A stretch of 64,000 bases of DNA. Source: Acidobacteriota bacterium (lineage in GTDB: Bacteria > Acidobacteriota > Holophagae > Holophagales > Holophagaceae). The DNA lies in contig JACPUT010000006.1 in NCBI GenBank assembly GCA_016192145.1, positions 372,001-436,000 on the forward strand. The letters run 5' to 3'. This document shows positions 7,899 to 37,914 of this stretch, piece by piece. Every line of letters begins with the position of its first letter. Position 1 is the first letter of the stretch. The notes under the pieces were generated by a model, which was not told where the DNA came from, did not search any database, and was given only the letters and a program-made list of their open reading frames with translations. The translations under genes and the position numbers were made by a program.

Positions 7899-8242
7899 CT
7901 TTTCTGCGGCCAGGGCTGGCCGTTCAAGAAGAACGCGAAGGGCGCTGCGCGCCACGCGAATGCTCCTTCGAATAGTGCCCCCGGCCTGCGGCCCACGCCG
8001 CCTAGGCGGCGTGCTTTTCGAGCGGAACCCCGGGTGGCCTTCATGGGCCCCCGGGGTTCCGCTCGAAAAGGGGTGGCCGAACGATGGGGGCTACTCGGCC
8101 CCTTCGCCTCGCCAAGCAGTCCCCACCGAGGGATGAGCCCGGTTATTGATGCCCGCGAAGGAATGCTCGGGCGGCATCCCGAGCTTTTCATTCGCGCTCT
8201 TCGCGCTTTTCTTCGCGCTATTCGCGTTCCAGGCTCGTACTG
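7899..8242. repeat. intergenic palindrome cluster (degenerate CGCGAA repeat arms around two long hairpins)
   Basis: No gene is supported in these 344 bases. The outer parts carry GAACGCGAA and GCGAATGCTCCTTCG (about 7931-7970) and, inverted, CGAAGGAATGCTCGG and a run of TTCGCGCT units (about 8155-8228), resembling the CGCGAAT repeats at 9790-10268 and 37466-37536. Inside are CACGCCGCCTAGGCGGCGTG (7994-8013, a perfect 20-bp palindrome) and a 20-bp perfect stem (8015-8034 with 8050-8069, TTTTCGAGCGG... to ...CCGCTCGAAAA). A further stem GCTCGGG/CCCGAGC lies at about 8165-8184. The T-runs are on the wrong side for terminators on either strand. Confidence 0.65.
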
Positions 8243-9789: not shown

Positions 9790-9829
9790 GGATCGCGAAT
9801 GACGCGAATGGGGCGAATGACGCGAATAA
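9790..9829. repeat. left inverted-repeat arm bounding the GxxExxY gene
   Basis: Bases 9790-9818 are the exact reverse complement of 10240-10268 (29 of 29), and the similarity extends with a one-base gap to about 40 bp on each side. The arm contains GCGAATGACGCGAAT and a second GGGCGAATGACGCGAAT unit. It begins 24 bp upstream of the gpmI start and ends 3 bp from the stop codon of the GxxExxY gene. Confidence 0.9.
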
Positions 9830-9832
9830 AGG

Positions 9833-10222
9833 CTACTCAGGGGCTTTGTGGACGAGTCGTTCCCATTCCATCTTGGGGTGGGTTCCAAAATTGAAGAGGA
9901 TTCCGACCATCAGGCCGGTGGCTCGCAGGTAGTTTAAGAGCTGGGCACGCTCAACGGCGGTAATGGCGGGAATGGCCTTCAGCTCCAGGATGAGCTCCCC
10001 TGCGACGATGAAGTCTGCGGTGAAACGCTTTTCCAGTACCTGGCCCCGATAGGCGATTCGAAGGGGCACTTCGCGCTCGAATGGGATACCCAGAGCCCTC
10101 AATTCGATGGCCAAGGCTTCCGCATATACGGATTCCAGAAACCCCGCCCCCAGATGGTTGTGGACCGACAAGGCCGCCCCTACGACTTTGAAGACCTCCT
10201 CACGAAGGGCGATTTCACCCAC
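9833..10222 (-). CDS. GxxExxY family protein (PD-(D/E)XK nuclease-like, PDDEXK_3)
   Basis: A 129-residue protein of the GxxExxY family, named for the motif seen here as GAGFLESVYAEAL (residues about 25-37). Other typical parts are YRGQVLEKRFTADFIV, LILELKAIPAI (a PD-(D/E)XK-like D...ELK core) and QLLNYLRATGLMVGILFNFG. The family is generally classed with the PDDEXK_3 nuclease-like proteins; its function is not established. The start is GTG at 10222, with no Shine-Dalgarno sequence. The gene is enclosed by inverted repeats lying only 3-5 bp from its start and stop, which in turn touch pyrB and the gpmI leader. The whole unit (9790-10268) looks like one insertion into the pyrB-gpmI interval. 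Confidence 0.9.
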   Translation of the reverse strand: MGEIALREEVFKVVGAALSVHNHLGAGFLESVYAEALAIELRALGIPFEREVPLRIAYRGQVLEKRFTADFIVAGELILELKAIPAITAVERAQLLNYLRATGLMVGILFNFGTHPKMEWERLVHKAPE

Positions 10223-10227
10223 GGCAC

Positions 10228-10268
10228 TTATTCGCGTCTATTCGCCCCATTCGCGTCATTCGCGATCC
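10228..10268. repeat. right inverted-repeat arm bounding the GxxExxY gene
   Basis: Partner of the arm at 9790-9829: 10240-10268 is an exact 29-bp inverted copy, extended to 10228 with one extra base. It starts 5 bp upstream of the GxxExxY GTG and ends 2 bp from the pyrB stop codon. The core CGCGAATGACGCGAAT (read on the minus strand) is shared with the palindrome at 37466-37536. Confidence 0.9.
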
Positions 10269-17390: not shown

Positions 17391-18331
17391 GCCTGGCCGC
17401 CGCCGCCCCGATGGGTGTGGCCCCCGGGGCCATGGGCGAAGGCCTGCCCCGAAAGTTCATCTCCTTCCTCGTGGCGGACCGCCCCTACGCGCTGCCCCTG
17501 GAGCGGGTGGCCGAGATCGTGCCCTGGCGCGAACTCAACAAGATGCCGCACATGCCCCGCGCCGTGGAGGGGATCCTGGATCTCCGGGGCCGGGTCTTCC
17601 CCGTCATCAGCCTGCGCACCCGCATGGGGCTGCCTCCGCTGGAGAGCACGAAGGGGACCTTCATCCTCATCCTCGACCTGGCGGGCCCCCCCGCGGCCAT
17701 CCTGGTGGACGCGGTGGAGAGCGTCGCCACGGTGCTTCCCGAACAGCTCATGCCCGGCAGCAGGTTGCTGGCCGGCATGGAAGGGGCCTGGGTCTGCGGG
17801 TTCATCCTGCAGGCCTCCCGGATCGTCGCCGAGCTGGATCCCGCCCTCGTGGCGGCCCTGGGCCCCGTGCGGGGCCGGGGCGCCGAGGCCCTGGCCAGCC
17901 TCAGCCTCGAGCAGCGCATGGACGAGGGGCTCAAGCACCTCCTCTCCCTCGCGCCGGCCAAGGAGAAGGGTGAGGCCGGGCGGCGGATCATTCCTCAAAT
18001 CGAGGAGAGCCTGAAGTTCACCGAGCAGGAGATGGACAAGGTCCTGGGCAAGGTGGAGGAGATGTTGGCCTTCACGGACCGCACCTTCCAGCAGCTCGTG
18101 TTCCTCAAGCAGGAGGCGGCCCTGGGCCGGCTCAAGGGGCAGGAATCCAAGATCGCGGACCTCGAAAAAACGGGCCAAGCCATCCAGGACTGCGTGTTCG
18201 AGCTCATCGGCACGGTCCAGTTCCAGGACATCTCCCGCCAGAAGCTGGAGCGGGTCCTGCACCACCTCCAGGGCATGCAGGGGCTGCTGACGGCCCGGCT
18301 GCGGGATGAGGGGCATGGCTCTGAGCTATAG
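17387..18331 (+). CDS. CheW domain fused to a CheZ-like phosphatase domain
   Basis: A 314-residue protein that overlaps the cheA stop by 4 bp (ATGA). Residues about 20-165 are a CheW domain (FISFLVADRPYALPLERVAEI; GILDLRGRVFPVIS). After a linker, residues about 200-310 are helical (FTEQEMDKVLGKVEEMLAF) and carry VQFQDISRQKLERVLHHL, nearly the same QDxSxQ site as the CheZ-like protein at 12837-13451. CheZ phosphatases need the Asp and Gln of this motif, and both are present. The fusion would place phosphatase activity in the receptor-CheA array. Its last codons run into an intergenic palindrome. Confidence 0.82.
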   Translation: MSLAAAAPMGVAPGAMGEGLPRKFISFLVADRPYALPLERVAEIVPWRELNKMPHMPRAVEGILDLRGRVFPVISLRTRMGLPPLESTKGTFILILDLAGPPAAILVDAVESVATVLPEQLMPGSRLLAGMEGAWVCGFILQASRIVAELDPALVAALGPVRGRGAEALASLSLEQRMDEGLKHLLSLAPAKEKGEAGRRIIPQIEESLKFTEQEMDKVLGKVEEMLAFTDRTFQQLVFLKQEAALGRLKGQESKIADLEKTGQAIQDCVFELIGTVQFQDISRQKLERVLHHLQGMQGLLTARLRDEGHGSEL

Positions 18332-18452
18332 GCTCTGGGCTTTAGGCTTTAGGCTTTCGCTGATTCCGACCCATTGGGTCTGAACGGATGGGTCGCGGTA
18401 GGCCAGAGCCTAAAGCCCAGAGCCTAAAGCCCAGAGCCTAAAGGCCAAAGCC
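18317..18452. repeat. intergenic palindrome with GGCTTTAGGCTCT-type arms
   Basis: The left arm (18317-18358) is made of GGCTCTGGGCTTTAGGCTTT-like units; the right arm (18401-18452) contains three 14-bp copies of CAGAGCCTAAAGCC in inverse orientation. The loop holds CTGATTCCGACCCATTGGGTC and, inverted, ATGGGTCGCG. The left arm overlaps the last codons of the CheW-CheZ-like gene, and the right arm reaches the asnS leader. The loop core (GATTCCGACCCA) is the same as in the palindrome at 46-181. Confidence 0.75.
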
Positions 18453-18485
18453 ATGTATTGGAGCCAGGGGCAAGTCCCAGGCACA

Positions 18486-29600: not shown

Positions 29601-29773
29601 TGCGGCGGCCCCTGGGCGTGGCCATCGTGGGCGGCCTGCTCTTCAGCCAGGTGCTGACCCTCTACACTACGCCCGTGATCTACCTCTACCTGGATCGGTT
29701 CCGGATCTGGTGGGCAAAGCCCGGATCTTCCCGGTGGGGTCGCCCTTCAAAGGCTTTCGGCTTTCGGCTCTAG
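26660..29773 (+). CDS. mdtC: RND multidrug efflux permease, MdtC-like
   Basis: A 1037-residue second RND permease, starting at the ATG that overlaps the mdtB stop (ATGA). The N-terminus [20 protein letters not shown] and [20 protein letters not shown] match the MdtC branch. TM4 has [19 protein letters not shown], and the C-terminal half [20 protein letters not shown]. The reading frame stays open far upstream of the start only because GC-rich sequence lacks stop codons. The last residues (AFGFRL) are encoded by the left arm of an intergenic palindrome, so the repeat seems to have replaced or extended the natural C-terminus. No TolC-type gene follows. Confidence 0.95.
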
Positions 29774-29868
29774 GCTTTTGCAGCGTTCGCCAGTGCATTG
29801 GGTCGTCCAAAAGCGGACCACCCGGGATGCCGTTCCCAGCAAGAGCCTAGAGCCGAAAGCCTACAGCC
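29751..29868. repeat. intergenic palindrome with GGCTTTCGGCTCTAGG-type arms
   Basis: The left arm (29751-29780, AGGCTTTCGGCTTTCGGCTC...) and right arm (29841-29868, AGCCTAGAGCCGAAAGCC...) are near-perfect inverse copies around a 60-base loop. On the minus strand the loop reads GACGACCCAATGC, sharing CGACCCA with the palindromes at 46-181 and 18317-18452. The left arm encodes the final residues and stop of the MdtC-like permease. Confidence 0.75.
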
Positions 29869-36225: not shown

Positions 36226-36498
36226 TCAGAGCTGCATCACCACGCCGGGCAGCTTGTGGATGGCCTCGCGCAGGGGCCGTTCCGCGTGCTCATCCGGGAG
36301 CACCACCCAGAAGGTGAGGCTGAGGTACGCGCCCTTGCAGTTCACGCCGGCCTGGAGATCGCTTTCGGCCTGGGGCCCGAGGTGCGCCACGATCACCGAG
36401 GCGACGATCTCCGCCTTCAGCAGGTGGGCGTGCCCGATCACCTTGAGGGGAACGCGGGCGGGGTACTCCATCTGGGGCTTGCCTTCGATGACCTTCAT
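36226..36498 (-). CDS. DUF493/YbeD family protein
   Basis: A 90-residue protein of the YbeD-like DUF493 family. Typical features are YPARVPLKVIGHAH near the N-terminus, KGAYLSLTFWVVLPDEHA in the middle and IHKLPGVVMQL at the end. YbeD has an ACT-like ferredoxin fold and has been proposed to regulate lipoate attachment, without firm proof. There is no lipoate gene nearby. It is divergent from the agmatinase gene. Confidence 0.82.
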   Translation of the reverse strand: MKVIEGKPQMEYPARVPLKVIGHAHLLKAEIVASVIVAHLGPQAESDLQAGVNCKGAYLSLTFWVVLPDEHAERPLREAIHKLPGVVMQL

Positions 36499-36523
36499 CC
36501 CGCCATTGTCCCAGCTTCAAGGC

Positions 36524-36552
36524 TTGGGGGTGTCATGGGGCACCGCTAAACT
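36524..36552 (+). promoter_or_regulatory. putative sigma-70-type promoter of the agmatinase gene
   Basis: TTGGGG (36524-36529) and TAAACT (36547-36552) are separated by 17 bp and lie 20 bp before the ATG at 36572. Confidence 0.5.
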
Positions 36553-36571
36553 GGAAGGTCCGAGGTCCGCC

Positions 36572-37456
36572 ATGCACGATGCCCCCACGACGCACCCCAC
36601 CCACGAGTGGGTACCGCCCTTCTTCCTGGGCTCCTGCGAGCCCGAGGAGGCGGAGATCGCCCTCTTCGGCGTCTGCTGGGACGGCACCTCCTCCTTCAAG
36701 GCCGGCAGCCGTTTCGCGGGCTTCGCCGTGCGGGAGGCCTCCTACGGCATGGAGGAGTTCAGCTTCTACCAGCAGCGCTCGCTCATGGACATCAAGTACA
36801 CGGACATGGGCGACCTCTTCCTGGCCCCGGGCCAGAAGCAGCGCACGCTGGATGACATCGCCTCCGCCGTGCGGGAGATTCGAGCCAAGGGCCAGTTCCC
36901 CATCGCCTTCGGCGGCGAGCACCTGCTGGCGTATCCGCTGATCAAGGCGGCGCTGGTGGAGCACCCGGACCTGGCCATCATCCACTTCGACGCCCACGCC
37001 GACATCCGCCCCGATCTGTGGGGGGACGCGTGGACCCACGCCACCTTCCTGGGGCGCTTGGGCGACGAGCACGGCTACGAGCGCATCAAGCAGTTCGGCA
37101 TCCGCTCCGGCTCGAAGGAAGAGTGGGACATCGCCCAAAAACACGACACGATCCGGCCCTTCACGAAGGAGGCCATCGCCGCCCACCTGGAGAGCCTGGG
37201 CGACCGCCCCCTCTACATCACGCTCGACATGGACGTGCTGGACCCGAGCCTCTACCCCGGCACCGGCACCCCCGAGCCCGGGGGCATCGACTACGCCACG
37301 CTCATGGCCGGCCTCAAGCTCTTCCGCGGCAAGCGCCTCGTGGGCATCGACTGCTTGGAGTTGGCGCCCCACTACGATTCCACCGGCGTCAGCGCCATCA
37401 CCATGGCGAAGACCCTGCGCGAGCTGATCATCCTGGCGCACGACCGGAAGAAGTAA
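36572..37456 (+). CDS. speB: agmatinase/arginase family ureohydrolase
   Basis: A 294-residue binuclear manganese ureohydrolase. The metal ligands are all present: FGGEHLL (His), HFDAHADIR (Asp, His, Asp) and TLDMDVLDPS (two Asp). SLYPGTGTPEPGG and GIDCLELAP complete the family signature. The agmatinase-type branch (putrescine plus urea from agmatine) is more likely than arginase from the overall sequence and length. The ATG at 36572 follows a promoter-like TTGGGG-17-TAAACT; GAGG lies upstream. No other polyamine genes are adjacent. Downstream is a palindromic repeat. Confidence 0.93.
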   Translation: MHDAPTTHPTHEWVPPFFLGSCEPEEAEIALFGVCWDGTSSFKAGSRFAGFAVREASYGMEEFSFYQQRSLMDIKYTDMGDLFLAPGQKQRTLDDIASAVREIRAKGQFPIAFGGEHLLAYPLIKAALVEHPDLAIIHFDAHADIRPDLWGDAWTHATFLGRLGDEHGYERIKQFGIRSGSKEEWDIAQKHDTIRPFTKEAIAAHLESLGDRPLYITLDMDVLDPSLYPGTGTPEPGGIDYATLMAGLKLFRGKRLVGIDCLELAPHYDSTGVSAITMAKTLRELIILAHDRKK

Positions 37457-37465
37457 CCGGCCTTA

Positions 37466-37536
37466 AACCGCGAATGACGCGAATTCACGCAAATGAAGGC
37501 ACGGCTCCTTCGCGTGAATTCGCGTCATTCGCGGTT
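37466..37536. repeat. palindrome with the same core as the GxxExxY-flanking repeats, without a gene
   Basis: The left arm 37466-37493 and right arm 37509-37536 are inverse copies over 27 of 28 bases, with only a 15-base loop. The arms begin AACCGCGAATGACGCGAATT. They share CGCGAATGACGCGAAT with the arms around the GxxExxY gene. It lies 10 bp after the agmatinase stop, and its right end runs into the stop codon of an HU gene remnant. Confidence 0.9.
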
Positions 37537-37636
37537 ACTTGACTTCAATGTCCCGGAGGTCCTTCCCTGGCTTGAAGCGGATGGATTTCCCATTGGGTAT
37601 CTTCTCGCGATCCGCAAGCGGATCACGAGGCCGACC
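37535..37636 (-). pseudogene. 3' remnant of a second HU/IHF-family gene
   Basis: On the minus strand, the 66 coding bases before the TAA at 37535-37537 encode KIPNGKSIRFKPGKDLRDIE followed by VK, identical over 22 residues to the C-terminus of the intact HU gene at 37639-37914. About a dozen nucleotide differences between the copies are all synonymous. Upstream of these codons the frame reads GRPRDPLADRE, still open but unlike HU, and no start or DNA-binding arm is present. It appears to be the tail of a former tandem HU paralogue. Confidence 0.75.
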
Positions 37637-37638
37637 CA

Positions 37639-37914
37639 TCACTTCACTTCGATATCCCGGAGGTCCTTGCCGGGCTTGAACCGGATCGACTTCCCATTGG
37701 GTATTTTGACGGCGTCGCCCGTTTTGATGTTGCGGCCCATGCCCTTCTTGCGGGGGCGGGGCTCGAAGACGCCGAAGCCGCGGATCTCGATGCGGTGGCC
37801 ATCGAGGAGGGCCTGCTTCATGCGGTCCGTGAGGAGGTCCACCACCTCCAGGGCCGTCTGCCGGGAGCAGGGGTGGATCTTCATCAGGGCGTTGGCGATG
37901 TCGATCTTGATCAT
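37639..37914 (-). CDS. HU/IHF family DNA-binding protein
   Basis: A 91-residue nucleoid protein. The N-terminal helices (IANALMKIHPCSRQTALEVV) form the dimerisation body; EIRGFGVFEPRPRKKGMGRN is the conserved GFG(x)F beta-arm region, and KIPNGKSIRFKPGKDLRD the C-terminal helix. Size and sequence are typical of HU/IHF, which bend DNA non-specifically or at selected sites. GAGGAA precedes the ATG. It lies 30 bp downstream of pilT on the same strand. The downstream remnant shows that a second paralogue once stood beside it. Confidence 0.93.
   Translation of the reverse strand: MIKIDIANALMKIHPCSRQTALEVVDLLTDRMKQALLDGHRIEIRGFGVFEPRPRKKGMGRNIKTGDAVKIPNGKSIRFKPGKDLRDIEVK

Follow-up and report, generated by a model that had tools for sequence, protein, structure and literature searches.

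The window examined here, a 64,000-nucleotide stretch of an Acidobacteriota genome of the family Holophagaceae (contig JACPUT010000006.1), contains a 71-bp palindrome at positions 37466-37536 that encodes no protein. A preliminary description of the sequence had noted that its arms carry the same 16-bp core as the inverted arms around a GxxExxY gene in the same window, and had proposed that the palindrome is the non-coding, MITE-like form of the same element or, alternatively, an excision scar. The locus raises the question of what such a gene-free palindrome is and how it relates to the gene-bearing elements.

Structure and genomic context of the palindrome

The palindrome was confirmed in the window as AACCGCGAATGACGCGAATTCACGCAAA-[15 nt]-TTCGCGTGAATTCGCGTCATTCGCGGTT, with 27 of 28 arm positions complementary and a 15-nt loop; a repeat search on the same palindrome returned 31-nt arms (94%). 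The left arm (37466-37494, plus strand) reads AACCGCGAAT-GA-CGCGAAT-TCA-CGCAAAT and consists of three units, with one departure in the third, while the right arm (37508-37536), read on the minus strand, is AACCGCGAAT-GA-CGCGAAT-TCA-CGCGAAG. Based on sequence reading and RNA folding, the whole feature was assigned, without a strand, to the gene-less palindromes of the AACC/CGCGAAT family. Folded as RNA, it has a free energy of -51.8 kcal/mol (z -9.2 versus shuffles). No T-run is present on its 3' side, so it is not a standard intrinsic terminator; the sole terminator-like match in the terminator scan was a different 5-bp stem at 37458-37470, and a search against Rfam over 37300-37700 gave two sub-threshold matches, both to eukaryotic families and clearly due to chance.

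The palindrome is preceded by an arginase/agmatinase-family gene (36254-37456, plus strand, Pfam PF00491), the stop codon of which lies 9 bp before it, and followed by a convergent gene for an HU-family DNA-binding protein (37639-37914, minus strand, PF00216). Between this intact gene and the palindrome lies a 34-codon frame (37535-37639, minus strand) that repeats in translation the C-terminus of the HU-like gene and is a remnant of a partial duplicate of the HU 3' end; its TAA stop codon overlaps the right end of the palindrome by two bases.

Gene-less and gene-bearing copies in the genome

Four exact matches of the core, CGCGAATGACGCGAAT, were found in the window, two in the palindrome and two in the arms of the gene-bearing element at 9790-10268 (no strand assigned), which belongs to a GGATC-ended subfamily and encloses a GxxExxY gene between 29-nt arms that are 100% complementary. 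The core reported earlier is thus identical in both. When up to three mismatches were allowed, the window had 9 copies, whereas 0.54 would be expected by chance; this number was not reached in any of 100 shuffled sequences. The 3,800,023-base assembly contains 64 exact copies, and the reversed control none. By hand count among the matches listed, these 64 copies fall into 38 sites, all of them inverted and all with the plus-strand core first. The proposed genome-wide search therefore separates 36 single, gene-less palindromes from two gene-containing pairs enclosing GxxExxY (hand count of 38), and the possibility raised at the outset, that the core is a ubiquitous short sequence without palindromic context, is contradicted by inverted arms at 38 of 38 sites. 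The counts cover copies with at most one mismatch to the core pattern, and one of the match sets behind them comprises about 100 of 140 places.

Two main end types, GGATC and AACC, were distinguished among the core elements. The GGATC type includes the gene element of the window and several gene-less copies. The AACC type is represented by 34 extracted elements, 33 gene-less and one gene-bearing (C1:19816-20252), and the AACC arms around the GxxExxY gene of the latter match the gene-less arms; AACC/GGTT ends are present in 33 of the 34, and one right end is GGTC. Since the palindrome is of the AACC type, its closest gene-bearing relative is the element at C1:19816-20252 and not the one in the window. 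The idea that the palindrome and the gene element of the window are one and the same element is thus borne out for the common core and not for the outer ends, which are AACC in the former and GGATC in the latter.

Other repeats were also observed in the window. Positions 8140-8235 hold a copy of yet another subfamily, the third, in which the repeat is lopsided, ends in GGAAC, and is built of CGCGAAT/CGCGAAG units; it occurs also at C5:128182, 129263, and 132727, with similar ones on C1. Three more gene-less palindromes with arms of 7-bp units are located at 46-182, 18314-18455, and 29752-29868; the GGCTGGA-type unit of the one at 46-182 is common to the arms around a gene of the four-helix, 23S-IVP family PF05635 (L069) elsewhere in the genome.

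Arms, loops, and placement

In an arm of the AACC type, AACC-GCGAAT is separated by two bases from a CGCGAAT unit, which is followed after three more bases by another CGCGAAT. Among the 33 gene-less copies (66 arms), identity reaches 97-100% in most unit columns and is lowest (88-91%) in the third unit; because the 34 elements were picked by core and end patterns, the search is biased towards conserved columns in the first two units and at the ends, while the third unit is outside the pattern. The three-base second spacer is variable and is matched between the two arms at 40 of 99 positions, versus 38.3 expected by shuffling, and it is therefore the unit sequence, not pairing, that is held there. 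Compensating pair changes in the hairpin were considered, and none were found at the second spacer. The first spacer has a small pairing excess (57 of 66 versus 53.6 expected).

The loops vary from 2 to 53 nt and are essentially unrelated: the mean score of 378 pairs was 5.30 versus 4.60 for shuffled loops, with three pairs versus none scoring at least 10. An exact direct repeat of 3-12 bp that could represent a target-site duplication was found in 0 of 34 elements, and the identities were near the shuffled mean. The lack of target-site duplication together with the unrelated interiors means that no classical transposition is seen. Some palindrome families in other genomes do have common loops. 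In genome G057, gene-less palindromes of one dialect on several contigs have a common interior and apparently constitute a copied family. A similar loop around AAGCAG was also observed in the CACCAAG-dialect palindromes of G175, G021, G027, G034, G036, and G199, species of one genus, with four copies in G175 alone.

The AACC elements are placed at gene ends. By a codon-bias score, at least one stop codon is faced by 33 of the 34, and in 30 of the 34 the facing stop codon is -3 to +20 bp away, with a median of 7. The adjacent genes are in tandem at 25 elements, convergent at 8, and divergent at 1, as judged from the same score and not from a gene finder; a rougher score gave 26, 7, and 1, respectively.

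The enclosed GxxExxY gene

The GxxExxY (PDDEXK_3) coding region of the window is located at 9833-10219 on the minus strand, stop codon included and with a provisional start, and matches Pfam PF13366 (5.7e-39) and TIGR04256 (5.5e-40). According to these two models, the gene-bearing elements enclose unambiguous members of the family, and the palindrome itself encodes nothing. The AF2 model of the protein has a mean pLDDT of 93.9, and among solved structures its fold is closest to that of the Cas4 protein SSO0001 (Foldseek E 3e-4; Z 9.8, rmsd 3.7, 102 aligned); lower fold matches include restriction enzymes, Holliday junction resolvases, and lambda-type exonucleases. An active PD-(D/E)XK nuclease needs a set of E-D-ExK residues, and none of the 38 aligned GxxExxY sequences departs from E29, D69, E79, and K81. 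The modelled PD-(D/E)XK fold and these residues identify the product of the enclosed gene as a predicted nuclease. A sequence search of solved structures revealed nothing credible, PADLOC gave no match, and PHROGs only two weak ones (E 0.033 and 0.49). Among the passages returned by a literature search, no paper was found that ties the GxxExxY/PF13366 family to repeats or gives its role; the passage of PMC8934634 in which GxxExxY is named does not concern repeats.

Association between arms and GxxExxY genes

Five GxxExxY genes are present in the same genome, four of them within inverted tandem-unit arms that differ from gene to gene in unit sequence or end type; no flanking arms were found at the locus L031. 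In a wider comparison, inverted flanks were scored at a Smith-Waterman threshold of at least 15. The phylum was represented by 35 GxxExxY loci (those five and the 30 best-scoring among the matches listed), 30 of which had such flanks, versus 1 of 29 agmatinase control loci, and 33 of 272 cross-pairs reached 15. A set of 80 loci from named genomes of many phyla, 4 of which were too short, left 76 testable ones: 54 passed and 22 were below the threshold, whereas none of the 380 shuffles passed; among cross-pairs, 34 of 357 reached 15. The cross-pair controls are raised because one arm consensus, (A/C)ACC and then three CRCNRAK-like units, is common to different elements.

A generic gene-less palindrome was found in 45 of 199 genomes of the phylum, and in the reversed control in none of them. 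GxxExxY is present in 73 of the 199 genomes overall and in 41 of the 45 palindrome-bearing ones (odds ratio 39, p 5e-18), versus an odds ratio of 2.9 for PF05635; the Fisher p-values assume more independence than these 199 related genomes have. Palindromes without a GxxExxY match occur in G021 (100% complete), G036 (98%), G069, and G197. Matches to a gene-length arm-to-arm pattern were obtained in 15 of the 199 genomes and correspond to 18 distinct sites (hand count), with a single match, in G155, in the reversed control. Ten of these 18 sites have a true two-unit right arm, and nine of the ten enclose GxxExxY, one only a fragment; the two-armed site without GxxExxY is L337. The other eight contain GxxExxY in one case. 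Tandem-unit inverted arms were also found at 30 of 32 loci of PF05635 genes. Phage records gave no match and plasmid records 8 among 72,556, and thus no indication that either phages or plasmids are frequent carriers of the family.

Turnover and age at orthologous sites

The preliminary description had suggested checking neighbouring strains for presence or absence at this site. Behind the agmatinase gene, the only same-genus genome (G001) has a CGCGAAG palindrome, G003 and G013, which are congeneric with each other, have a CGCGAAT and a CACGAAT palindrome, respectively, and G011 has heptamer repeats, while the site is empty in the genus g8 relatives L076, L077, L078, and others. A second site was followed through the genus of G199 at loci with a left flank match. 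It carries a CGCAGAT palindrome with a different loop in G260, a CACCGAT palindrome in G207, and other repeats in G175 and G222, and is empty in G166, G253, G027, G184, G264, and others. At the G175 locus (L216), heptamer repeats and a CACGAAG element are stacked, as if the place were a hot spot. The finding of empty sites in some relatives and other unit dialects in others indicates that the insertions come and go. The empty sites contain no palindrome at all, and the loops of 2-53 nt are unrelated to each other; the explanation of the palindrome as an excision scar was rejected on these two grounds.

Some copies are old. The gene-bearing C1 element is present at the same site in G003, where its protein is 66% identical (dN 0.26, dS saturated), and the gene in this shared element is under purifying selection. 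Two gene-less C6 sites are shared with G003 and G036; their loops are unrelated, while the first two units differ at 2 of the 204 positions compared (hand count); at two orthologous sites the arms have thus remained intact across three genera while the loops have diverged. Nineteen core regions were taken from relatives; five of them (in L192, L195, L196, and, twice, L210) corresponded to three G000 sites, and the remaining ones to none. No clean insertion boundaries were obtained from the species comparison, the flanks being too diverged.

Nature of the palindrome and alternative explanations

Altogether, these data support an element family that exists with and without a gene and in which it is the sequence of the arms that is maintained. 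The palindrome looks like the version without a gene in a family of mobile elements that occurs in many bacterial phyla and has been little described. The initial suggestion of a non-coding form of the same element agrees with the match of its arms to the gene-bearing AACC element and with the association found in the 199 genomes and across phyla. We consider it reasonably probable that the 71-bp palindrome belongs, as a copy lacking the gene, to the GxxExxY-bearing inverted-repeat elements, which would spread through the action of the nuclease. In such a process GxxExxY, as a predicted PD-(D/E)XK nuclease, would bind the tripled units, either as double-stranded DNA or as an extruded hairpin, and might cut at the arm units, leading to the copying or repair of elements with matching arms into new intergenic places; the gene-less palindromes would be served by it in trans. 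The insertions just behind stop codons could be the ones that survive, and the hairpin may then act for the host as an mRNA 3' end. A broader proposal can be offered only tentatively, as we hold it to be somewhat less probable than its opposite: GxxExxY with three-unit inverted arms may constitute a cross-phylum class of transposase-free elements, in which a single PD-(D/E)XK nuclease would copy or convert elements via the arm units with no target duplication, keeping the arms uniform within each dialect while the loops drift and gene-less palindromes spread behind stop codons.

The main result against the nuclease mechanism is the state of the arms in G036, which are intact in a genome with no GxxExxY match and may therefore be held by something else. 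This favours a role of the hairpin in the host, and both could be true. Also counting against the mechanism are the missing target-site duplications and unrelated interiors, the three other palindrome-bearing genomes with no GxxExxY match, the armless gene at L031, the 22 named loci below the threshold, the raised cross-pair controls, and the two-armed site L337. One could thus hypothesise that the palindromes are REP-like 3'-end hairpins that serve the host by blocking transcription from either side or by protecting mRNA, with GxxExxY as a passenger. The position of most copies within -3 to +20 bp of a stop codon, the prevalence of tandem and convergent over divergent neighbours, the very high stability of the fold, and the conservation of arms at two sites in three genera, G036 included, while loops diverged are all in line with this explanation. 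However, no T-run follows the palindrome, opposite spacer positions are not kept paired, and the sites are empty in several relatives; moreover, a passenger gene leaves unexplained both the co-occurrence with GxxExxY in 41 of 45 genomes and the arms in many phyla. We regard a purely host-serving hairpin as unlikely.

Sequence-specific units with free spacers would also suit protein binding, and by analogy with Geobacter metallireducens, for which the same anatomy has been printed as class 2 sites (PMC2700814), the arms might be sites for a global IHF/HU-like DNA-binding protein. This appears improbable, since the elements are placed behind stop codons and not at promoters, many unit dialects exist, several of them within one genome, and the enclosed GxxExxY gene is left unexplained. 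Still less credit can be given to a classical MITE derived from some ordinary insertion sequence that ends in AACC...GGTT, with GxxExxY as chance cargo. Many intergenic copies with terminal inverted repeats, their presence or absence between relatives, and the G057 copies with a common interior are as expected for a MITE, but none of the 34 elements has a target-site duplication, the interiors are unrelated within the genome studied here, and exact core matches occur only in tight palindromes or around GxxExxY, none being found at insertion-sequence length (hand reading). The term MITE-like, used in the preliminary description, is thus apt in a loose sense: the terminal inverted repeats are there, and are common to the gene-bearing C1 element as a candidate autonomous form, while target-site duplication and an interior common to the copies are absent.

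Comparison with known systems

PF05635 genes, like GxxExxY genes, are mostly located inside tandem-unit arms. The arms of the intervening sequences (IVS) of rRNA genes pair with each other. The Coxiella 23S rRNA IVS with its S23/four-helix protein has been described as a selfish element in helix 45 (PMC4990558); as far as that description goes, it resembles the elements studied here in being small, bounded by inverted arms, and optionally carrying a single small gene, and differs from them with respect to the heptamer units and the gene family.

The anatomy of the arms has a precedent in Geobacter. Non-random palindromic multicopy sequences have been reported in G. bemidjiensis, where 12% of intergenic regions contain multicopy sequences of one kind or another (PMC2996986). 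The class 2 sites of G. metallireducens, published in 2009 as predicted binding sites of a global regulator of the IHF/HU type, consist of three tandem repeats TCTCCGTS[Y] in opposite-strand pairs at variable distance (PMC2700814). The three tandem units, opposite-strand pairs, and variable distance are the same here, and the reverse complement of the Geobacter unit fits the CRCNRAK unit. The passages on class 2 sites in that paper make no tie to GxxExxY, mobility, or empty sites. With the anatomy in print for Geobacter and no paper found on GxxExxY and repeats, the anatomy is known, while the link to GxxExxY and the reading given to it are apparently new.

The palindromes are also reminiscent of the REPIN/RAYT (TnpA-REP) system, for which the proposal is that a small repeat-linked protein mobilises many short intergenic palindromes in trans (PMC3116915, PMC8266576). 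Both systems, as far as these sources describe the former, combine short multicopy intergenic palindromes with a small-protein gene linked to the repeats. However, REPINs carry GTAG or CGTC tags (PMC3733652) versus the AACC/GGTT ends observed here, and the linked gene here encodes a protein of the PD-(D/E)XK fold inside the repeat pair. The Y1 (HUH) transposase PF01797, found in 5 of 14 control genomes, had no match in the genome studied here (97.97% complete). Tying GxxExxY to the palindromes makes the role of a widespread protein family testable, and through this link a whole class of intergenic palindromes in different bacterial phyla would be explained as a single family of elements. Its nuclease-based way of spreading might be a new one, alongside that of REPIN/RAYT.
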